In this document: in pieces, positions 28,956 to 50,073 of the stretch | Layout: every line of letters starts with the position of its first letter | How positions within the stretch are numbered: the stretch's first letter is position 1 | DNA from: Ignisphaera sp. | GTDB lineage: Archaea > Thermoproteota > Thermoprotei_A > Sulfolobales > Ignisphaeraceae | DNA: 64,000 nt | Direction: 5' to 3' | Assembly: GCA_038831005.1 (NCBI GenBank) | Contig: JAWBKZ010000001.1 | Location: 1-64,000 of the forward strand | The notes under the pieces: generated by a model | What the model saw: the letters and a program-made list of their open reading frames with translations, nothing else | Database searches by the model: none | What the model was told of the DNA's origin: nothing | Position numbers and translations under genes: made by a program

Positions 28956-29753
28956 TCACTTACATCCATTCAATAAAAGTATTAAACCAAATCCATTAGC
29001 TAGTCTATCTCCAACAAATGCTCTAAAACTATGACTGTATGGTTTTTGGATATAATCTTGAATTTCTAGAGCTTCAAACCCTGTATCCATATCCTCAACA
29101 CCTTTACATATAATTATAAGACCATTAATCATCTCTAAACCTGGATATGCACCACTAGATCCGTGAACAACTATAGTGCCTCCGCTCATTTTAGTTCCTA
29201 AGAAGTCTCCAACATCTCCAAAAATCTCCACATATCCTCCTCGCATACAGAAGCCTACATAATGTTGAGCATTGCCACGAATAACAATTCTTCCTCCCCT
29301 CATACCAGTAGAGTTGCTAAAGAATGGTTTAGCACCTACAAAACTACCTGCCTCACCATGTACTTCTATAATTCCATTCTCCATAGATACACCCAAACAT
29401 TCTCTAGCACATCCTCTTACTATCAGGCATCCTCCCTTCATTTCATATCCCGCAAAAGGTCCTACATTGCCATGTACTTCTATAATTCCTTCTTCCATAT
29501 CCTTACCTACAAACCATAGTTTTTCTGTACCCATGCCCGTAAAGATGATTTTTATTAATTTTGGATCCCCTGGAATATGGTTATAGCAATCTATTTCGAA
29601 AAGATCTTTGGCTTTCAAAACCCTATTACCGTATCTTATAGCTATAGATCCCACTTCATTTATTGTATATCCAGCGATAATTGAGGGAGAAATACTACTT
29701 ATGTCTATTGGTGCTCTAGGTTTTTGGAGAAGCCTAAAAACCACTTCAATCAT
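28956..29753 (-). CDS. fwdC: Formylmethanofuran dehydrogenase subunit C homologue (FwdC/FmdC)
   Basis: 265 residues. A right-handed beta-helix is shown by repeated G-x-x-x-G units: GNVGPFAGYEMKGGCLIVRG, GEAGSFVGAK, GNAQHYVGFCMRGG, GDVGDFLGTKMSGG and GSSGAYPGLEM. This is the FwdC pattern, related to the GXGXG end of glutamate synthase. In methanogens FwdC belongs to the tungsten/molybdenum complex that fixes CO2 on methanofuran. Its start overlaps the end of the FwdD-FwdB fusion gene by 8 bp, so both make one complex. A non-methanogenic host suggests a C1 or other formyl/formate reaction; that is inference. Confidence 0.88.
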   Translation of the reverse strand: MIEVVFRLLQKPRAPIDISSISPSIIAGYTINEVGSIAIRYGNRVLKAKDLFEIDCYNHIPGDPKLIKIIFTGMGTEKLWFVGKDMEEGIIEVHGNVGPFAGYEMKGGCLIVRGCARECLGVSMENGIIEVHGEAGSFVGAKPFFSNSTGMRGGRIVIRGNAQHYVGFCMRGGYVEIFGDVGDFLGTKMSGGTIVVHGSSGAYPGLEMINGLIIICKGVEDMDTGFEALEIQDYIQKPYSHSFRAFVGDRLANGFGLILLLNGCK

Positions 29754-31461
29754 AACTCAAACCTTTCTTTATGCGGTCAAGAAGCATTCTAAGTACATCT
29801 GTATCACATAATACAGATTCTGGAGGTTCAACAATTTTATCAACCTCTATTATCTCGTAATCCATTCTATATATACTTCCCCTACATTCTATACCTGTTA
29901 AACATGTAGGTATAACTACGTCGGCTAGCGATGCTGTTAGAGACCATCTACTATCTATAACTATGAGGGATAATTCAGCTAGAATTCTGACACATTCATT
30001 AGGCATATGAGCAACAGGATCACTGGCAATTACAACTACGGAATCTACTTCACGATTCTTTAGCAAATCTATGGCTGTAGTTACTCCAGGTGCCATAATA
30101 GGTGAATCGCTATAGAAATCAACTGCAAATGGATATCCAGTAAATTTCTTCAAGAGAATATTGGTGCCTGTTACATTAAAGTGTCCTCGTAAAGGCTGTA
30201 GATACCATTCACCATAATTATTCAGCTCTTTAACTAGTTCTACAAGCTCCACTATGTTCATGAATTTTGCTCTACCCATAGATAGACCTAAACCAGTAAA
30301 GATGACTCCTTTTCTGGAGTTAAGCAAAGTTTTTATAAATCTTTCAATGATATCGGTACCTATGTTCACGGATTCCATCCCACCTCTATATCCCTTGATC
30401 ATAGACCTTATGGCTCGTATGAGCTCTAGATCTTTACCAGGCTCTATAATCAATCCAATATCAGCCATCTTCATAGTCTCGCTTTCTCTTACATCTACAA
30501 CAGCAATACTCTTTACATACCTCTTAATGATATACATGAGTTTTGGGTGAGCTTCAGCAGGATTAGCTCCCCATATAATGACAGTATCTATATCACTTAA
30601 CATATCTAATTTGAAACTCTTTATAGTAGCTCCATCTAAACCTAATAATGTTGGTCCGTGGCATATTGATGCTGTTGAATCTATAGCACCCTTAAGAATC
30701 TTAGCTATCTCTATAGCTATCTCTATAGCTTCATTTGAAGTACTTGAGAGTCCATAGATAAGTGGGTGTTTTGAATTAAGTAGAATATCTGCAGCTTTAT
30801 CTATGGCTATAGGTAACGGTACTTCTTTGAATTCGAAACTATTTGGTGTCATTATTAAGGGTCTCAATACTCTATTTCTATGTCTATTAATAAACTTTGA
30901 AACCGAAATAGAGCATCCATCTAGAACCTCAAGAACAGTATTACCACACACTTTTACAATAATATTACTACAAACAGCTCCACAAAAAATACAAGTAGCT
31001 AACTTAACATCATTATTGCAGATCTCATGCTGTTGCACTAGGTCTCTACCAGTGAATGTAATAAAAGGTCTACCTATATCGGCAAAAAGATCCTCTAAAC
31101 GTGGTAAAGGTTCGTCACGATTCACCCTCTCTACACATACCTTTACAGATTTGTAGTTAGGCATACCTATTATTGATTTAGAGGATATCAGGAAATTACT
31201 CCATGGACCTATAGGAATGAATATAACTCTATTAGGTAGAGAGGGATCTTCTTTAACTGGAAGTATAATACTTCTATCGTTTGAAGTAATCCTAACTATG
31301 TGGTTCAACTTTAACCCATCTATGTCGGTGGGATTCATATATGCTACAGCAACAGATTTCTCATATTCTTTATCAAATTTTCCGCTACTTTCCATGGATA
31401 TTGCCTGAAATCGTGTTCTTCCAGTTATAAGCGTGAATTCATTACAGTTTCTAGTAGCCAT
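29746..31461 (-). CDS. FwdD-FwdB fusion, molybdopterin oxidoreductase of the formylmethanofuran dehydrogenase family
   Basis: 571 residues. Residues about 8-112 match FwdD, the dinucleotide-binding module: TLITGRTRFQ, NPTDIDGLKLN, VIFIPIGPWSNF and GMPNYKSVKV. Residues about 145-571 match FwdB: a [4Fe-4S] site from Cys157, Cys160, Cys164 (CIFCGAVC) and probably Cys183, the active-site Cys267 in TASICHGPTLLG, and later IWGANPAEAHP, VIIDSRWSLTA-like LIVIDSRWSLTA and VIPTCLTGIECRGS. In methanogens FwdD and FwdB are usually separate subunits. No FwdA amidohydrolase and no FwdF/G ferredoxin genes are in the window. The metal (W or Mo) cannot be told; Cys rather than selenocysteine is encoded. Confidence 0.87.
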   Translation of the reverse strand: MATRNCNEFTLITGRTRFQAISMESSGKFDKEYEKSVAVAYMNPTDIDGLKLNHIVRITSNDRSIILPVKEDPSLPNRVIFIPIGPWSNFLISSKSIIGMPNYKSVKVCVERVNRDEPLPRLEDLFADIGRPFITFTGRDLVQQHEICNNDVKLATCIFCGAVCSNIIVKVCGNTVLEVLDGCSISVSKFINRHRNRVLRPLIMTPNSFEFKEVPLPIAIDKAADILLNSKHPLIYGLSSTSNEAIEIAIEIAKILKGAIDSTASICHGPTLLGLDGATIKSFKLDMLSDIDTVIIWGANPAEAHPKLMYIIKRYVKSIAVVDVRESETMKMADIGLIIEPGKDLELIRAIRSMIKGYRGGMESVNIGTDIIERFIKTLLNSRKGVIFTGLGLSMGRAKFMNIVELVELVKELNNYGEWYLQPLRGHFNVTGTNILLKKFTGYPFAVDFYSDSPIMAPGVTTAIDLLKNREVDSVVVIASDPVAHMPNECVRILAELSLIVIDSRWSLTASLADVVIPTCLTGIECRGSIYRMDYEIIEVDKIVEPPESVLCDTDVLRMLLDRIKKGLSYD

Positions 31462-32034
31462 ACTTCAGTCCTACGTTATACTGTTTAACACAGGTTTTAT
31501 AAATAGATATTCTGCATAAACATACTTAAGTTCATAGATAATATACATAATTGTTTAAACATAGTTTATTTAGAATACTTGAAACCTAATCTTTACTGTA
31601 TTTCATAATTAATGAAGTACTTTATGCTGATAGGAATATGAGTAGTTCGAACAACATTTAATTTATAGGTATTGGAACATCTATGGCTACTCGAAAAATT
31701 ATCAAGGTGTATGAAATAACAGAATATAGAGTCTAGTAATAGAAATGAGTCTATAGTGATATTTTAGATCAGATATCATAGTGAGCATCACATGTATTGG
31801 CACAGCTAATAGCAAAGATGTAGAGGACTGCTGTCACGAGATGAGTAACCCTTAGATATAGTATTCAATGCTTTGGTTTATTAATATCTAAAGATATATT
31901 GAGGTATAATTAGTGTAGTTATTTGCATAACGTGTTAAAAGTGTTAGAAATCTAGGTTCATATTTATATTCTGGAGCTAGATAGGGTAAGTAGTATAACG
32001 CATGTTAAACTAGATTAAGAAGATCCAAAAGTCC
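31462..32034. other. Divergent gap between fwdDB and the P-protein gene
   Basis: About 570 bases. Apart from the fwd promoter I see no gene, RNA or repeat. A 17-codon ORF at about 31683-31736 (MATRKIIKVY start) is too short to call. Confidence 0.45.
31496..31504 (-). promoter_or_regulatory. TATA box of the fwdDB-fwdC operon
   Basis: The minus strand reads TTTATAAAA, 35-43 bp before the ATG at 31461, predicting a leader of about 13 nt. Confidence 0.55.
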
Positions 32035-35090: not shown

Positions 35091-35483
35091 TTAGCTTAGT
35101 TCTGCTCTATACCACTCTACGAAATCCTTTAAAGCCGATTTTGCATGTGATATATATGATTTGCTATAATATGAATTAATGGTGCATAAATATTTCTCAA
35201 GCGGTTCTTCGTCAGGCTCTACCCCATTTGTTTCACACCATTCTAGGAAGCTTTTAATAGTCTTTAGCTTTGTTTTCTTCGTGCTTTCTGAATATCCTTT
35301 AAGCGATTTTTCATACTCATATAGAATTTCGTCTGTAGTTATAACCAATTTCCTGTTATTTTTCAACCAATCGCTAAGAATACTGTTTACTAAACTTTTT
35401 GAGTCAACACCAAGTCTTTTTGCAGCCACAGTAATTTTAGCAACAATATCAGCATCTATTTCGATACTACTCAAACTTGACAT
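35091..35483 (-). CDS. Small protein with a ribbon-helix-helix-like start and an integrase SAM-like DNA-binding domain
   Basis: 130 residues. The N-terminal 45 residues (IEIDADIVAKITVAAKRLGV) look like a short strand plus helices of a ribbon-helix-helix type. Residues about 50-128 match the core-binding (SAM-like) domain of tyrosine recombinases: EILYEYEKSLKGYSESTKK, SFLEWCETNGVEP and KSALKDFVEWYRAE. The catalytic domain with its R-H-R-Y residues is absent, and no frame upstream or downstream supplies it. It may be a domesticated integrase fragment acting as a DNA-binding protein, or the surviving end of a lost mobile element. Confidence 0.6.
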   Translation of the reverse strand: MSSLSSIEIDADIVAKITVAAKRLGVDSKSLVNSILSDWLKNNRKLVITTDEILYEYEKSLKGYSESTKKTKLKTIKSFLEWCETNGVEPDEEPLEKYLCTINSYYSKSYISHAKSALKDFVEWYRAELS

Positions 35484-40101: not shown

Positions 40102-40818
40102 ATGAGTAGTGTTAAGAGATTTGCTGAATTATTTATACCTATAGGTAGTAGGGTTTTTTCGACATACACAAGGATCTTTCTACCTATATCTATGAGCTCT
40201 ATATCTATTGTGTCAACACTTCAGCCATTCCAAGACAGAGGAATAGTTTTTACGGTATATGGTTTTACTGTAGTGTTGTTACTTATGTATATCGTGAAGA
40301 TTCTAGAAAGAGCACTGAGGAGTCTCACTCTACCATTCATGTTTATAGCTCTAGGTCTTCTGGTTAACTTCATATCTATGTTTTTAGGACTTACACCACC
40401 ACCAATATATTCTTTAATATTGTCTGCATTCAAGGTTTCATTGATCTTCATATCTATAGCTCTTCTTATTCAATGGTTAAGTTTTAGAGAATTCAGATGT
40501 GTATTGAAGATGATCAAGTTAAGCAGTCTAGCAAAGATATTGACTATAGTGATGGCAGTTATGCCTACGCTATTCAATAACTATGCAGAATCATATACCG
40601 CAGTATTTCTGAAGCTAGGTAGACGAAGAGTTTACAAGGCTGTGAAACCATTGGTAGTTCAATCAGCTATACTGGCTCTAGATATTGCACAAGCACTCTA
40701 TCTGTATGGATTCCCTAGAGATGTTTGTATATCTATTGATAGACCTAAAGCTAAAGAGATAGCTTTAATTGTGGCAATAATTTTTATAGGGATAGTACTT
40801 CTACTCTACATGCCATAG
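40102..40818 (+). CDS. ECF transporter transmembrane (T) component
   Basis: 238 residues with about five transmembrane helices and a cytoplasmic coupling region before the last helix (KLGRRRVYKAVKPLVVQSAILALDIAQALYLYGFPRD). The typical A-R-G coupling boxes are only partly kept. It lies 22 bp after the ATPase gene. Its 3' end overlaps that of larC, transcribed towards it, by 13 bp. Confidence 0.8.
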   Translation: MSSVKRFAELFIPIGSRVFSTYTRIFLPISMSSISIVSTLQPFQDRGIVFTVYGFTVVLLLMYIVKILERALRSLTLPFMFIALGLLVNFISMFLGLTPPPIYSLILSAFKVSLIFISIALLIQWLSFREFRCVLKMIKLSSLAKILTIVMAVMPTLFNNYAESYTAVFLKLGRRRVYKAVKPLVVQSAILALDIAQALYLYGFPRDVCISIDRPKAKEIALIVAIIFIGIVLLLYMP

Positions 40819-42074
40819 ACTTCACCTCTATCTTTAATCATTCTATAAACTAAATCACGAATCGTTCTCAATGGTAGACCTGTAGCTTGAGCTATAGCCT
40901 TCAAACTCTCGTACTCTGGTTTTATAACCAGCACATTACCCTTTAGATCTTTACTAATTTTGAATACAACTGGATATTTAGTGCCTTTAATTTCTACGTC
41001 TATTATCCTCTTCTCCCTAATGGGTACAACAAATCTTCTGTATCTTGTATACCTTACACCCAGAGTACCAAGCTCATCTATAAGAATTCTGGCGATTTCA
41101 CTAACCTTATCTAAATCAGCTATAACTCTAATAGTGTATCCAGGCCTATTTTTCTTCATGTATAGAGGAACTATAGCTACATCTCTAGCACCTACCTCCA
41201 TAAGCTTATTAAATATATGGCCTATGATTTCTCCAGAAACATCATCTATATCAGTTTCAATTACAGCTATATCTTCAGACGCAAGATCTTCAATATCAAA
41301 CTTGGTATCGTTGTATCCGACAATAATTCTCAATATGTTTGGCAAATCCTTTAAATCCCTTGATCCTGCACCATATCCTATAGATTCAATACGAATAGAA
41401 GGTATGTATTCGGTAAATTCTTTAACAATGCCTGCAATTATTGCAGCACCCGTTGGTGTTGTAAGTTCCTGCTCTATAGGGCCTCCAACTATCTTGGCCT
41501 TTACCTTTTTCAATATCTCTAATGTTGCAGGTGTAGGTACAGGATATAGACCATGTGTACAATGGATTCTTCCACCTCCAATAGCTATAGGAAGTGATAT
41601 AAAGTGAGACTCTATGAGGTCTAGTGTTTGAAGCGCTATTGCTGAACCAATTACATCAACAAATGTGTCAGCAGAACTCAGTTCATGCATATGTGTGGTG
41701 TAGAGATCAATATCTCCATGAATAGATGATTCAGCTTCTACAAGTATCTCTATAGCTCTTAGAGCAAAGTTTTTTGCATTATCATTAAGATCTATATTTG
41801 AACATATGTTTCTAGTAATTTCTATCATTTCTCGTCCTGTTCTATACCTATGCTTTTCTTTGACCTTAATTCTGAGACTCTTAGCCTTAATACCCCTTTT
41901 TACAACATCAATAAAATCTAGCTCGAGTTTTTCGACACCTTCAGCATATTTTGGAACAACATCTTCAAGAACCTTTATTTTATCTATGTTAGCACCAAAC
42001 GATACTAGTGCTGATAAAAACATATCGCCTGAGATTCCAGCTATGCTTGGATCTAAAACCACAACCTTCTTCAT
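40806..42074 (-). CDS. larC: LarC, nickel-pincer cofactor cyclometallase
   Basis: 422 residues of the DUF111/LarC family: DPSIAGISGDMFLSAL at the start, THMHELSSADTFVDVIG, IGGGRIHCTHGLYPVPTPATLEIL in the middle, TTPTGAAI, GYGAGSRDL and ETDIDDVSGE later. LarC inserts nickel into the pyridinium cofactor in a CTP-dependent step, giving the nickel-pincer nucleotide of lactate racemase-type enzymes. It follows larB by 14 bp. LarE and LarA-like proteins are not in the window. Confidence 0.93.
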   Translation of the reverse strand: MKKVVVLDPSIAGISGDMFLSALVSFGANIDKIKVLEDVVPKYAEGVEKLELDFIDVVKRGIKAKSLRIKVKEKHRYRTGREMIEITRNICSNIDLNDNAKNFALRAIEILVEAESSIHGDIDLYTTHMHELSSADTFVDVIGSAIALQTLDLIESHFISLPIAIGGGRIHCTHGLYPVPTPATLEILKKVKAKIVGGPIEQELTTPTGAAIIAGIVKEFTEYIPSIRIESIGYGAGSRDLKDLPNILRIIVGYNDTKFDIEDLASEDIAVIETDIDDVSGEIIGHIFNKLMEVGARDVAIVPLYMKKNRPGYTIRVIADLDKVSEIARILIDELGTLGVRYTRYRRFVVPIREKRIIDVEIKGTKYPVVFKISKDLKGNVLVIKPEYESLKAIAQATGLPLRTIRDLVYRMIKDRGEVYGM

Positions 42075-42088
42075 ATTGATTCACACAA

Positions 42089-42901
42089 TCATGTTATTTG
42101 CATCAAACCTTCTTTACATTTTTCTCTATATAACGAAATTCGTTTACCTATTAGTGCTGCAAGAACAGCAGCACTAACACCATTATCTATATTCACTACA
42201 GCAAGCCCCAATGGACATGCTTGAAGCATTGAATATAGAGCAGCTATCCCTTCTCCACCAAGACCATAGCCTACAGATGTAGGAACAGCTATAACAGGTA
42301 CATCTATTAGTGAAGCTACAACCGATGGGAGAGCTCCCTCCATACCAGCTACAACTATAACCACATCAGCATCAACATCTTTTACCTTCTTGAGAGCCTC
42401 TATAACTCTATGAAGACCCGCTACACCAACATCATATATCGATATAGCTCTACATCCCATCTCCTCTACAACTACTCTACACTCTTCAGCTACAGATATA
42501 TCGGCTGTACCAGCAGTAAGAATACCAATAGTACATTGATGCCTCCTTCTTTCAAAATCCTTCTTTCTCGCTATAGCTATCCTTCCTCTATCAAAAACTT
42601 CTATCTCTAGATCATCTATATGCAAATTCTTTAAATAATTTATATGTTCTTTCCTAAGTCTAGATATAATTATTCTACCGGTTTTCGGAACAACACTCCT
42701 TATTATCTTCTCAAGTTCTTCTAAATCCTTTCTCTCAGCGAAAACAATCTCAGGTATATCTCTTCTAAGTTCTCTACCTAAATCATATCTAATCTTGTTA
42801 TCTATATAATCTAGCTCGAAAATCTTCAATCTCTTAATAGCTTCATCTACATCGATATCTCTTTTTGCAACCTTCTCAAGAATCTCTCTAATACTTGGCA
42901 A
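42089..42901 (-). CDS. larB: LarB, carboxylase/hydrolase for nickel-pincer cofactor synthesis
   Basis: 270 residues of the PurE-like LarB family: an N-terminal helical extension, then IGILTAGTADISVAEECRVV, YDVGVAGLHRVI, VVVAGMEGALPSVVASL, VPVIAVPTSVGYG and a closing VVNIDNGVSAAVLAAL. LarB carboxylates nicotinic acid adenine dinucleotide at the start of the pathway finished by LarE and LarC. It sits between a VOC protein gene (23 bp upstream) and larC (14 bp downstream), so the three form one minus-strand operon. Confidence 0.93.
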   Translation of the reverse strand: MPSIREILEKVAKRDIDVDEAIKRLKIFELDYIDNKIRYDLGRELRRDIPEIVFAERKDLEELEKIIRSVVPKTGRIIISRLRKEHINYLKNLHIDDLEIEVFDRGRIAIARKKDFERRRHQCTIGILTAGTADISVAEECRVVVEEMGCRAISIYDVGVAGLHRVIEALKKVKDVDADVVIVVAGMEGALPSVVASLIDVPVIAVPTSVGYGLGGEGIAALYSMLQACPLGLAVVNIDNGVSAAVLAALIGKRISLYREKCKEGLMQIT

Positions 42902-43449: not shown

Positions 43450-44229
43450 ATGGAAGGATACAATCCAATTGAATTAACGGAAATAGTCAAGAAACATGTT
43501 ACACAAACACGTAACAATATCGAGGAACGAAAATATTATCGATTCAGAGGAGGTAAATGGTACGGAGGTATAGCTACAGGTGATGTTGTTGGATGCAACC
43601 TCAGATGTAGATTCTGTTGGGGATGGCGCTATACCCATAGCGTTGACAAAGGCTACTTCATGTTGCCTGAAGAAGTGTTCACGAAGCTCATAGATATAGC
43701 CTCGGATAGAGGCTATAAATACGTTAGACTAAGTGGTGGGGAATCAACAATATCTATAGACCACTTGATTTATTTATTGAATAGAGTTGAAGAAATGAAA
43801 CTCATTTTTATACTAGAGACAAACGGAATAATTATAGGATACGATGAGCGGGTAGCGAAAAAACTTGCAAACTACAGTAGGATAGTTATAAGAGTATCAT
43901 TTAAGGGAACAACATCTGAGGAATTCCATAGACTTACTGGAGCTTCATCTAAATTCTTCGAGTACCAGATTAAAGCTCTCGAAAATCTTCTAGACAATGG
44001 TATGAAGCCTGGAGAAGATTTCTATCCAGCCGTAATGCTGAGTTTTACGCAAGATGAAAACTATACACAATTCAAGAGAAAACTAAGGACTATTCATCCT
44101 GTACTTTCGGAATCAATAGATGAGGAATACGTAATACTGTATCCACATGTTATCGAAATACTAAACAGATATAACCTTAAACCAAGAATAGCCTTCAAGC
44201 CAGAAAGCGTACCGGAATTTATGGTGTAG
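43450..44229 (+). CDS. Radical SAM protein
   Basis: 259 residues. Cys49, Cys53 and Cys56 (CNLRCRFC) bind the [4Fe-4S]-SAM cluster; VRLSGGES is the GGE motif that holds SAM, and FILETNGIII the next strand. The family resembles archaeal radical SAM proteins of unknown substrate, sometimes likened to pyruvate formate-lyase activases. It is divergent from the VOC-larBC operon. No partner gene is adjacent, so the substrate cannot be inferred. Confidence 0.85.
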   Translation: MEGYNPIELTEIVKKHVTQTRNNIEERKYYRFRGGKWYGGIATGDVVGCNLRCRFCWGWRYTHSVDKGYFMLPEEVFTKLIDIASDRGYKYVRLSGGESTISIDHLIYLLNRVEEMKLIFILETNGIIIGYDERVAKKLANYSRIVIRVSFKGTTSEEFHRLTGASSKFFEYQIKALENLLDNGMKPGEDFYPAVMLSFTQDENYTQFKRKLRTIHPVLSESIDEEYVILYPHVIEILNRYNLKPRIAFKPESVPEFMV

Positions 44230-44394
44230 ATACACCAATCATGACTAACTATAACCATATGCACACAATATTACACTATAGTGAGTATCCAAGTAACTAT
44301 ATGACTACATTATGTACACATAATAGTGGCTAGAGTATATCTCTGAACCAAGTATGTCTACTGCAGAGTTTTTATATACGGACCTATGCAGTTG

Positions 44395-44929
44395 GTGAGG
44401 ATACTACACACTATTTGGATACTGTTGATAAAAATGATTGTGGGTATATACCTAGTTCAATAACAAGTTGGTTCTAGTAATACAGTAGTAGTCATAGAGG
44501 GAACGCTTAAGAGAAACTCTACTGCCGAGATCCATATTTAAACTCTGAGGTTATACCCAGGTAATTCATCTGTCTATAAGACACAATACAGAAGGAAGAT
44601 AATACCTCTAGTCATAGAGCCTCCGGCGGGTTATGATAGTTATGAGGAGGCAAATATTTAGAAAGATTATAAATATTGTTGTTGAAGGTTACGCTGTTGG
44701 TGATGATGCTGTCGAACTCCGTATAAAACCTGTCAATAGCGAGGTAGAAATAACTAATCTATGCATAGAGAAACCCTACAAAGGTGGCAACGGTACTAAC
44801 TGTAGAAAAGTGTTTCTATATGTGGATCAAGAGTGCTTCGGTAACATTACCCTTGATGCAATAAAGGTGAGCGATAGAGATACAATTGATTTAAATGCCA
44901 ACATAAAGTTCTATACAAGGGAACAGTAG
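44395..44929 (+). pseudogene. Decayed gene for a secreted or membrane-anchored small protein
   Basis: A GTG at 44395 lies about 20 bp after a TATA-like TTTTTATATA (44369-44378). It opens MRILHTIWILLIKMIVGIYL, a hydrophobic signal-like segment, then a TAA near 44461. The same frame continues VGSSNTVVVIEGTLKRNS, meets a TAA near 44539, and continues LRLYPGNSSVYK and VIEPPAGYDSYEEAN to a TAG at 44661. The remaining beta-rich part is in another frame (44633-44929: VVEGYAVGDDAVELRIKPV and ITNLCIEKPYKGGN). Two stops and one frameshift interrupt one plausible protein of about 175 residues. The final 98-residue ORF could still be expressed on its own. Confidence 0.55.
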
Positions 44930-45037: not shown

Positions 45038-46126
45038 TTAAACTCGTTCTCCTTTACTAGAAACCTGATTGAGTTTTTGAACCTCTTGAAATACCCACCC
45101 TAGATTGTGTACAAATCTTCTCTCAATATTTTCTTCGTATAGTGCTTGAGCTATTAGTGGTAGAGCTATTGTCGCATCTACATACGCTACCCTTTTTTTA
45201 GCTCTATAAGATACCTTTCCCCAGCTAACGGCTTCCTCTAGAGTAGCTCCTGATAATCCACCCCATTGAGGTGCATCTGTTGTTATCTGTACAACATATT
45301 CTAGCGGTTTGTAGTGTTCTTCACTTTTCTTGTTCAACTCGATAAGTGTTTGAGCAACTGTTACCAAATTGATGTAATCTTTGGGTACTCCTCCACCGAT
45401 GTATATAGCTGACATCTTTTTTGCTTTTCTACCTATCTCTACTATTTGATTGAAGTCTTTAACCATATCTAGAACTATATCGTGACTTCTTTCCCTGGAA
45501 GCTAGAACAGCTGCAATACCATAAGCACTATCAACTAATGCAGGTGAAAATACTGGTACACCTACTCTATACGCAGCTGAAACTATACAGTCTATACCTC
45601 TTCTATCTAAGTATTCTCCAAAGAGATACAAGAATTCTGCTGTAGAATATCTTGATCCTCTGGGCAAGGTGTAGATGAACTCCTTTATCAAGTTCTCCAT
45701 CTTTCGGTACGCAAGTTCATCTGCAAACACATCGTAGAACCTATCTATCTTGTACTTTAGAAGCTCGTAATCGTCTACATATGGGGATCCTTTGTAGTAG
45801 CTAAAGCCCATAGCTTCATATATATCTTCAGATATGTTTGCACCTGTCGATACAATAACATCTACATATCTCTTCTCTATAAACCACTTAACTATCTTCC
45901 ACATACCTGCTGTACTCATAGATCCAGCTAAACCTAGAAACACGATATTATCAGGATCTTTCAGCATGGATACTATAATTTCATAAACTTCTCCTAGAGC
46001 TCTACCTTGATAAGCTGTATCGGCAAGATCGTTAAGCAGTTCTCTTACGCTTCTATTCCTCAACTCAAGTGTTTTTAGTTTCTCGATAAGATATGGATTT
46101 TCTGGAGATCTATTCATTTTATACAC
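45038..46126 (-). CDS. dys: Deoxyhypusine synthase
   Basis: 362 residues. Rossmann-type NAD-binding fold with FLGLAGSMSTAGMWKIV, VSTGANISEDIYE, and the conserved VGVPVFSPALVDSAYG. The catalytic lysine is Lys304 in EEAVSWGKVSY, and YIGGGVPKDY and TTDAPQWGGLSGA line the NAD/spermidine site. It transfers the aminobutyl group of spermidine to a lysine of aIF5A, essential in archaea. An internal ATG three codons in (MNRSPENPY) is an alternative start. Confidence 0.94.
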   Translation of the reverse strand: MYKMNRSPENPYLIEKLKTLELRNRSVRELLNDLADTAYQGRALGEVYEIIVSMLKDPDNIVFLGLAGSMSTAGMWKIVKWFIEKRYVDVIVSTGANISEDIYEAMGFSYYKGSPYVDDYELLKYKIDRFYDVFADELAYRKMENLIKEFIYTLPRGSRYSTAEFLYLFGEYLDRRGIDCIVSAAYRVGVPVFSPALVDSAYGIAAVLASRERSHDIVLDMVKDFNQIVEIGRKAKKMSAIYIGGGVPKDYINLVTVAQTLIELNKKSEEHYKPLEYVVQITTDAPQWGGLSGATLEEAVSWGKVSYRAKKRVAYVDATIALPLIAQALYEENIERRFVHNLGWVFQEVQKLNQVSSKGERV

Positions 46127-46454
46127 GTTGAAACGGTTCTAGCCAACTGTTTCTATAGTATACCCTAATAAATTTAGTAGATCTCGATCCACTATAACAA
46201 CCATCATTAACAATAACTAGCTTCAGTACAAAGTTCAACCTAACCAGGTATAGAGACTGGTTAACATGATGTACCATATCAACGGTTATTAGGGATTAAG
46301 TCAATCTTCATTAATCTATATGGATTCTAGCTAGATAGCATATTATGTAAACGTTATTAGGAACCCAAATTAAGAGAACTACATGTATGAAGATATACAC
46401 AATATGGTGTAGCACCTCAACATTCATCAAGCACATGAGGCTCTGGGGAAGATT
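46127..46454. other. Divergent gap between deoxyhypusine synthase and thioredoxin reductase genes
   Basis: About 330 bases with no open frame of note. It must contain both promoters; none stands out clearly. Confidence 0.45.
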
Positions 46455-47435
46455 ATGTCTAGATTTAGATTATCTGTATCTCGAACAAAAACAGGTAAAG
46501 AGATATATGATTGTGTTGTAGTTGGTGCTGGTCCAGCTGGTCTTACATCAGCAATATATCTCGCTAGATTTGGCTTAAAGATTAATATAGTGACTAGAGA
46601 TGTTGGAGGTAAGATGGCTATAGCTCCTCTAGTAGATGATTATCCTGGTATTCCCGAGATACCTGGGATAAAGCTTGCCGATCTTTTTGAACAGCATGTT
46701 AAAAAATTTGGTGTAGAAATTGTTGTAGGAGAGCTTATGGTGAACCTCAAGAGGGAGGGTGATATATGGTGTGTAGAGACAGTTAGCGGCTCAAAATTTT
46801 ATGGGTATAGTGTTATAGTGGCTATTGGATGTGAGAAAAAGAAGCTTGGAGTACCTGGAGAAGATAGATTTCTTGGTAGAGGAGTATCGTATTGTGCAGT
46901 CTGTGATGCACCTTTCTTTAAAGATAAAGTTGTGGCTGTTGTTGGTGGAGGTGATTCAGCGCTTTCAAGTGCTCTTCATCTAGCATCATATGCTAGAACA
47001 GTCTATATAATCCATAGAAGGAACATGTTTAGAGCGTTTCAAGCATATGTTGATAAAGTATTGAAAGAACCTAAGATAGAGGTGATAATGAACTCAAGGG
47101 TTGTAGAAATACTTGGAAAAGATAAAGTTGAGGCTGTAAGAATTAGAACAAGTTCAGATGAAGAAAAGGTGCTGAAGGTTGATGGAGTCTTTATAGAGAT
47201 AGGTTCTGAACCACCTAAACAGCTTTTGGAAAAAATAGGTCTAGAACTCGATGATAAAGGATACATAGTGGTTAAACCAGATATGAGCACAAATCTTCCA
47301 GGTGTATTTGCAGCAGGAGATGTTACTGGAGGACCCCATAAAGTACGGTTCGAGCAGATAATTGTGGCGGCAGCCGAAGGAGCTATAGCTGCAAACTCTG
47401 TTTACCACTACCTATTGTCAGTTAAGAAAGATTAA
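46455..47435 (+). CDS. trxB: Thioredoxin reductase
   Basis: 326 residues. FAD site VVVGAGPAGLTSAIYLARFG (22-41), active-site disulfide Cys147/Cys150 in YCAVCDAPFF, NADPH-domain motif VGGGDSALSSALHLA (163-177), and the closing FAD motif GVFAAGDVTGG. It keeps thioredoxin-like proteins reduced. The NADPH-specific HRR-type motif is present as IIHRRNMFRA. It stands alone; a ZIP transporter gene follows after about 75 bp. Confidence 0.92.
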   Translation: MSRFRLSVSRTKTGKEIYDCVVVGAGPAGLTSAIYLARFGLKINIVTRDVGGKMAIAPLVDDYPGIPEIPGIKLADLFEQHVKKFGVEIVVGELMVNLKREGDIWCVETVSGSKFYGYSVIVAIGCEKKKLGVPGEDRFLGRGVSYCAVCDAPFFKDKVVAVVGGGDSALSSALHLASYARTVYIIHRRNMFRAFQAYVDKVLKEPKIEVIMNSRVVEILGKDKVEAVRIRTSSDEEKVLKVDGVFIEIGSEPPKQLLEKIGLELDDKGYIVVKPDMSTNLPGVFAAGDVTGGPHKVRFEQIIVAAAEGAIAANSVYHYLLSVKKD

Positions 47436-48944: not shown

Positions 48945-49277
48945 TCAACACTCTGTGAAACCAAGCACTCTACACCATTCACGAATTATTTCTTCTTCTG
49001 CCCTCTCTTGCTCAATGAGTTGATGTTCAGCATAATTAGGTTTCCTGGATCCTTTATCGAGGCTCATCTGAATATATTCAACAGCCTTTCTAGTTGGATG
49101 AGAAACTATACTGATGTAAGCTCTAGCAATAGCTGCTACAGTTGCCTCATGTAGAACAATGACCTGGTCCTTCAGAACAAGAATCAACCTCATATGTCTA
49201 TGGTTCGGCGGAATAAAACCTACAACCTTAACAACATCACTATTCCTATACACCTTCACATCAGTAGATACAGACAT
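48945..49277 (-). CDS. Conserved hypothetical archaeal protein
   Basis: 110 residues. The first half is beta-rich (VKVVGFIPPNHRHMRLILVLKDQVIVLHEATVAAIARAY), the second helical and charged, ending in REWCRVLGF. I do not recognise a family. Codon use looks like that of its neighbours, and it probably shares a transcript with the Zn-ribbon regulator gene. Confidence 0.6.
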   Translation of the reverse strand: MSVSTDVKVYRNSDVVKVVGFIPPNHRHMRLILVLKDQVIVLHEATVAAIARAYISIVSHPTRKAVEYIQMSLDKGSRKPNYAEHQLIEQERAEEEIIREWCRVLGFTEC

Positions 49278-50073
49278 AACAACTCACTACTCAGTCCTTT
49301 CTTAAACAAGTTTATAGCTGATTAATACTTGATAGTTCTAGATCAAATATGGTATTAATATCTCATAAAGATTTCTATTCATTGTAACTATATTGATCGG
49401 TATATGGATAAGAGGCACGGTCTCCTAATTATCTGTATATACATCTACTATACCCTCTGTAAGACAAAGAAATAAAGACTAGGGTTTAAATAATGTTGAT
49501 ATAGAGAATTTGATTAATTGTTAGTGGGTGTTATCCATATACTTCCTAGATTTTGTTAGAGTATGCAGTATGTTTTAAAGAAATCAAGGAATTAGATTAA
49601 AACATTTGATATATTGAGAGATTTCGGAAATTTTTAATAAATTCTCTATATCGACCAACAGATTATGTTCTTCAGATTTTTCGAAGGTAGAGATTAGTTA
49701 AAATCAGTATTCGAGAGCATTGGATATACATTAAATCACATTCTAGATTTATTCGATGTTTGTTATCTGAGTGATTGAAGGTTTTGTTGATGTGGATGGA
49801 TTTTGAAGTATGGTTATGTTTTGTTAATGTCTTTGACCGATTTTCATGGTGATGGGTATTTGTGTTTGATTTTTCTAGTTTATTGATCTTTATTAGAAGT
49901 AGTGATTGTGGTTAAGTGTGGGTTTGTTCTGATTTCCTCAAGATAAATAATATTACCAAACTCTTGATTAATCATACATAATCTATGGGGGTGTATAGAT
50001 AGATTAAGGTCTAGTTCACTATTACTGGTTTGCTAGATCAGTTAATGTAAATGTATATGTGTGGGTGGTTTAA
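49278..50073. other. Long gap with a strongly G/T-biased segment
   Basis: Nearly 800 bases without a convincing gene. In 49741-49930 I count about 50 G against 10 C on the plus strand, with T also well above A, unlike the rest of the window. No tRNA, snoRNA box or hairpin was recognised. The region may be a non-coding RNA, a regulatory leader or another strand-biased element. The promoter of the following dehydrogenase gene must lie at its right end. Confidence 0.4.

Follow-up and report, generated by a model that had tools for sequence, protein, structure and literature searches.

Two overlapping genes of an Ignisphaera species encode a FwdD-FwdB fusion and FwdC, subunits of formylmethanofuran dehydrogenase (FMD), and may together form an enzyme that interconverts CO2 and free formate independently of FwdA and methanofuran. 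Judged from sequence and comparative genomics, the probability of this reading is about 0.55. With the comparative data, it appears better supported than the sequence of the locus alone could show. The wider evolutionary scenario is an even wager: an FMD core shed its ties to FwdA, methanofuran and H4MPT, and a formate dehydrogenase (FDH) re-evolved from it in a fermentative hyperthermophile, with an FMD-specific loop trimmed to FDH length.

The fwdDB-fwdC operon

The pair lies in a 64,000-nucleotide stretch of DNA, hereafter the window (the whole stretch that was analysed), from an Ignisphaera sp. genome of 1.7 Mb that is 99.5% complete. Its features are the following.

29746..31461, minus strand: fwdDB, 571 aa, FwdD-FwdB fusion, predicted W/Mo-bisPGD CO2/formate module
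28956..29753, minus strand: fwdC, 265 aa, beta-helical FwdC subunit (TIGR03122)
31087..31440, minus strand: FwdD domain, aa 8-125 (NF042908 at 5.4e-17 and PDB FwdD chains)
29764..31008, minus strand: FwdB domain, aa 152-566 (TIGR03129 over residues 156-564; 5t5i_B)
29746..29753, minus strand: 8 bases shared by the end of fwdDB and the beginning of fwdC in a two-gene operon
31487..31505, minus strand: TATA-box-like element TATTTATAAANNNTGTGTT, about 26-44 nt upstream of fwdDB

Matches of both genes are far above chance. The fwdDB product scores 360 bits against the FwdB model TIGR03129 (cut-off 328) and the fwdC product 198 bits against the FwdC model TIGR03122 (cut-off 131). FwdB of M. wolfei (5t5i_B) matches fwdDB at 1e-87, Pfam places molybdopterin and dinucleotide-binding domains on it, and the FwdD domain, which completes the pterin site, is present. 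Among solved structures, the pair comes closest to formylmethanofuran dehydrogenases (chains FwdB, FwdC and FwdD), and the Fdh-alpha model TIGR01591 gives fwdDB 105 bits, where its cut-off is 666. The flanking genes encode a DUF790 protein and a prephenate dehydratase; as both are unrelated to the pair and on the opposite strand, it forms an isolated two-gene operon with fwdA not adjacent. At this locus, neither FwdF or FwdG nor a dedicated electron-transfer subunit adjoins the pair. Domain matches and flanking genes thus bear out the sequence-only reading in its description of an intact FwdD-FwdB fusion with FwdC and no adjacent FwdA. The exact element TATTTATAAANNNTGTGTT also occurs upstream of the operon of Ignisphaera aggregans (26-47 nt before the start across the two operons) and is a plausible archaeal promoter candidate, its pattern having been drawn post hoc from the same two upstream sequences.

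Other parts of the window encode GH12, GH3 and GH94 (cellobiose-phosphorylase type) enzymes with a solute-binding protein (2998-23525), in keeping with beta-glucan use. A 130-aa ORF (35091-35483) carrying a phage-integrase SAM-like domain at its N-terminus is possibly the remnant of an integrated element, and a LarC-like nickel insertion protein adjoining an AIR-carboxylase-domain (LarB-like) protein (40806-42901) suggests synthesis of the nickel-pincer cofactor.

A canonical cluster in the same genome

For the genome as a whole, the earlier claim of 'no FwdA' is wrong. Contig C5 carries a canonical cluster.

49204-50070: ftr, 401 bits
47429-49123: second fwdDB
45723-47402: fwdA, 746 bits, the single fwdA of the window genome
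44900-45670: second fwdC
43887-44816: mch

Together these five genes supply most of the set (fwdA-F and ftr) whose presence elsewhere would, in that reading, make this an ordinary C1 pathway. Given this cluster, the window pair is a paralogue, with 42% identity (DB) and 36% identity (C) to the C5 copies. Beyond mch lie genes for FdhD, a corrinoid protein and a UroD-type methyltransferase, and upstream of the fwd cluster stands a group-4 hydrogenase/Mrp-like cluster, the hydrogenase being named by motif reading. The canonical ftr-fwdDB-fwdA-fwdC-mch array (L003:10661-19884 and L004:1-10426) is thereby enclosed between the methyltransferase/fdhD genes and the hydrogenase cluster, a setting which suggests that an Ignisphaera species oxidises or fixes methyl groups. 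In the canonical clusters of sister genomes (L011, L012 and L016), ftr is preceded by an MtdA/MtdB-like ORF (NADP-dependent methylene-H4MPT dehydrogenase by motif reading), which, if confirmed, is unusual for archaea.

The window genome thus has exactly one fwdA for two fwdDB and two fwdC genes. This count favours an explanation in which the pair encodes a second FMD isoenzyme that borrows the FwdA of C5, in the manner of the Mo enzyme encoded by Methanothermobacter fmdECB. Such sharing has a documented precedent, FwdA being common to the Fwd and FmdBCE enzymes of Methanothermobacter (FwdA/FmdBCE; PMC3087415), and the overall fold and active site of the window pair are FMD-like. FwdA sharing is possible in the window species. 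As an account of the pair it is unlikely, given that neither known copy retains H160, R163, G169 or W302 in FwdB, or G142 or G213 in FwdC.

The orthologous pair of Ignisphaera aggregans

The window organism, which the sequence-only reading took for a likely non-methanogen, shares its genus with Ignisphaera aggregans, an anaerobic fermentative hyperthermophile (PMC3035270). The I. aggregans genome is complete (one contig of 1,875,953 bp), and its sole FwdB is the nearest relative of the window FwdB, at 51-52% identity. Here too fwdDB is paired with fwdC, the overlap being 11 bases. No fwdA was found at E<=1e-60 (15 other genomes of the order give 1e-86 or better), a threshold below which a strongly diverged FwdA or amidohydrolase would fall; ftr and mch have zero candidates at E<=1e-3. 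With fwdA (at E<=1e-60), ftr and mch all missing, the borrowing of FwdA would not apply in this species. The proposal, made from the window alone, that the complex dispenses with FwdA and acts on formate or CO2 therefore stands in part: it lost its premise of a genome without FwdA, and it gained a sole FwdB in a species with no fwdA at E<=1e-60, the lack of ftr and mch in that species, and a loop characteristic of FMD that both copies have lost.

Both copies are intact despite divergence to 51% identity, so that the pair is probably maintained. FdhD, a sulfurtransferase for FDH-type enzymes, is present in I. aggregans, and the convergent neighbour of the operon encodes a MobA-like nucleotidyltransferase. 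Upstream of fwdDB-fwdC on the same strand, a 130-aa protein (L044:13702-14094) has no Pfam or NCBIfam match. Another locus of this genome (L027), reported with stops, was considered as an FDH pseudogene and rejected; it encodes an intact 'CPRDCYDTC' molybdopterin protein.

Distribution and phylogeny

FwdB-like matches occur in 107 of 398 Thermoproteota genomes (even sample), many of them D-B fusions. The fusion was thus discarded as a novelty, being common across Thermoproteota and on record for 14 TACK assemblies (PMC11237513). Within the GTDB order (214 genomes), fwdA is found in 15, each also with a FwdB match, and I. aggregans is the one genome with FwdDB and no fwdA at E<=1e-60. At new Thermoproteota FwdDB loci with flanks, fwdA is directly adjacent in 21 of 22, the exception being a locus cut off by its contig end; all 21 sampled loci with room for a neighbour have fwdA adjacent. 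Window-type pairs are known from two species only (2 of 11 genus genomes). A scan with the two-sequence alignment, whose 8-residue patterns are insensitive, yielded 80 FwdB loci and no further window-type member, and a single-protein scan of genome contigs gave no match.

In both the FwdB and the FwdC trees, the window and I. aggregans sequences form a clade with support 1.0. This clade has a long stem within a Thermoprotei clade (stem 0.47, window tip 0.67), with an exact attachment point that the trees do not fix. PurP was tried as a genus phylogeny and rejected, its two paralogues disagreeing on whether the two pair-bearing species are sisters. Our searches found no paper on an FMD lacking FwdA or on FMD in Ignisphaera.

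Conserved catalytic residues and a lost loop

Near-invariant positions (81, each with conservation of 93% or more across some 110 other FwdB sequences, M. wolfei numbering) were compared with the two window-type copies. Both keep 57 of the 81, including C9, C12, C16, C35, C118, H119, R288 and the NP-AH and RG-NV motifs. In the window, the sites of interest are the following.

30913..30993, minus strand: [4Fe-4S] cysteines C157, C160, C164 and C183 (M. wolfei C9, C12, C16 and C35), all retained
30658..30663, minus strand: Mo/W-ligand Cys267 and catalytic His268 (M. wolfei Cys118 and His119; roles from PMC11656701)
30181..30189, minus strand: Arg425 and His427 (M. wolfei Arg288 and His290)
30511..30540, minus strand: deletion site of an FMD-specific loop (M. 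wolfei about 161-175), with H160, R163 and G169 lost
29313..29324, minus strand: FFSN loop of FwdC, with G142 changed to S, among the compared sequences seen only in the window and I. aggregans

Ten FwdB positions are changed in both copies (D17, E105, G130, G137, A143, H160, R163, G169, M287 and W302). They cluster at residues 125-170, with 6 of 14 positions changed there versus 4 of 67 elsewhere (Fisher p=0.0013, for a range chosen post hoc). Both copies lack the loop (~10-15 residues), in which other FwdB proteins almost without exception have H160, R163 and G169; a one-residue FMD-specific insertion before A143 is lost as well. The length after the deletion is about that of Fdh-alpha proteins from sister species. 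In FwdC, G213 is replaced by K or R in both copies; W302, G142 and G213 are kept by essentially all other compared sequences. The changed residues may belong to the FwdA interface or to the cavity. An AlphaFold model of fwdDB from a 22-row alignment (mean pLDDT 80, pTM 0.82) resembles M. wolfei FwdB (5t5i) with a target-normalised TM-score of 0.90, the next matches being formate dehydrogenases.

Remodelling of the FFSN loop, G142 and G213 in both FwdC proteins is what a new interface might look like, and so invites another explanation: that formate from the FwdDB-FwdC core passes to some other partner, amidohydrolase-like or a ligase, which formylates another amine carrier. Retention of FwdC, whose known job is to stabilise the cavity joining two active sites, an arrangement likened to that of glutamate synthase (PMC11656701), speaks for such a partner. 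The explanation is distinctly improbable: no amidohydrolase gene adjoins either pair, and the window and I. aggregans loci have no neighbours in common, so that no partner is visible.

The pair could also be what is left of a duplicated fwd operon, decaying, nearly or wholly without function and evolving fast after the loss of FwdA. This relic reading is disfavoured and slightly less probable again, for the long branches, the unshared neighbours, the presence in only 2 of 11 genus genomes and the change of His290 to Arg in I. aggregans are set against two genes that stay open in two species at 51% identity, all metal ligands and the Cys/His/Arg triad kept, and an overlapping operon with a similar TATA-like element upstream in both species.

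Proposed function

In known FMD, the BD module reduces CO2 to formate, a hydrophilic cavity stabilised by FwdC holds the formate, and FwdA condenses it onto methanofuran; when methanofuran is not present, formate is released (PMC11656701). A BD-C unit without FwdA would, by the same chemistry, act as an open-cavity CO2/formate oxidoreductase. In the proposed mechanism, the W/Mo-bisPGD site would convert CO2 to formate or oxidize formate, with electrons probably entering from ferredoxin via the FwdB cluster. With the FwdA lid absent, the internal cavity would open to the solvent and formate could move in and out freely, while FwdC may stabilise the BD module or cap the cavity. Several points count against this FwdA-independent reading. 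FwdC is kept although its known role is to bridge BD to FwdA; the search for fwdA in I. aggregans reaches only to E=1e-60, which leaves room for a strongly diverged amidohydrolase partner; no electron-transfer subunit is adjacent, and the type has only two members.

The most likely use of the activity is perhaps the supply of free formate for PurP-type formate-dependent purine synthesis; disposal of formate or of low-potential electrons in fermentation is an alternative. A solo fdhA has been proposed as the formate supply for purines in Thermococci (PMC10025317). PurP is encoded in 11 of 11 genus genomes and does not track the pair, and it was rejected as a pair-specific marker. Nearly every Ignisphaera genome (PF06973, genomes G000-G011) has two PurP paralogues, ~40% identical. 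Fdh-alpha-type FDH has no match in the window genome or in I. aggregans and is present in five sister genomes. Mutual exclusivity of FDH and the pair is not significant (P about 0.22), and all 10 near-complete genus genomes have at least one of Fwd, Fdh-alpha and the window-type pair.

Significance

In published work, FwdB takes the basal position in the Mo/W-bisPGD family and is linked with methanogenesis (PMC7331816, PMC10100899). If the FwdA-independent reading is true, the CO2-reducing half of FMD lives alone in a cultured organism, which would bear on the formate-channel mechanism, i.e. on the roles of the missing loop and of the FwdA lid. The pair would be a candidate small hyperthermophilic CO2 reductase, and it would suggest where archaea that lack FDH obtain formate for their formate-dependent purine pathway.

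Comparison with known systems

Like M. wolfei FwdABCDFG (5t5i), the window pair has the B, C and D subunits, the Cys ligand, His119, Arg288, the [4Fe-4S] cysteines and the FwdB fold. Unlike it, the pair has no adjacent FwdA, F or G, the H160-G169 loop is deleted, and in I. aggregans a window-type pair occurs without ftr, mch and fwdA (E<=1e-60). Methanothermobacter fmdECB is likewise an operon of B and C without A (D being fused in the window) in a genome with one fwdA, whereas in I. aggregans the orthologue has no FwdA (E<=1e-60) that it could share. Canonical fwdDB-fwdA-fwdC clusters of Thermoproteota, such as that on C5, have the same FwdD-FwdB fusion and belong to the same lineage by tree, but they adjoin fwdA, and in the window genome also ftr and mch.

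Metal-dependent formate dehydrogenases (FdhF/FdhA) resemble the window type in their homologous BD module, in length at two sites and in the presumed CO2/formate reaction. The window type differs in keeping FwdC and the FwdB motifs, and in its HMM assignment to FwdB (360 bits) rather than Fdh-alpha (105 bits). The Fhc complex of methylotrophic bacteria shares a FwdB/FwdC-like scaffold; it retains the amidohydrolase and has lost the metallopterin, the reverse of the window pair. Lokiarchaeota also have fwdD-fwdB-fwdC clusters, without adjacent fwdA at most loci examined and with a FwdA-like gene near a few loci. Unlike the window type, the Lokiarchaeota proteins have the H160-G169 loop intact, and they are distant from it in the tree.
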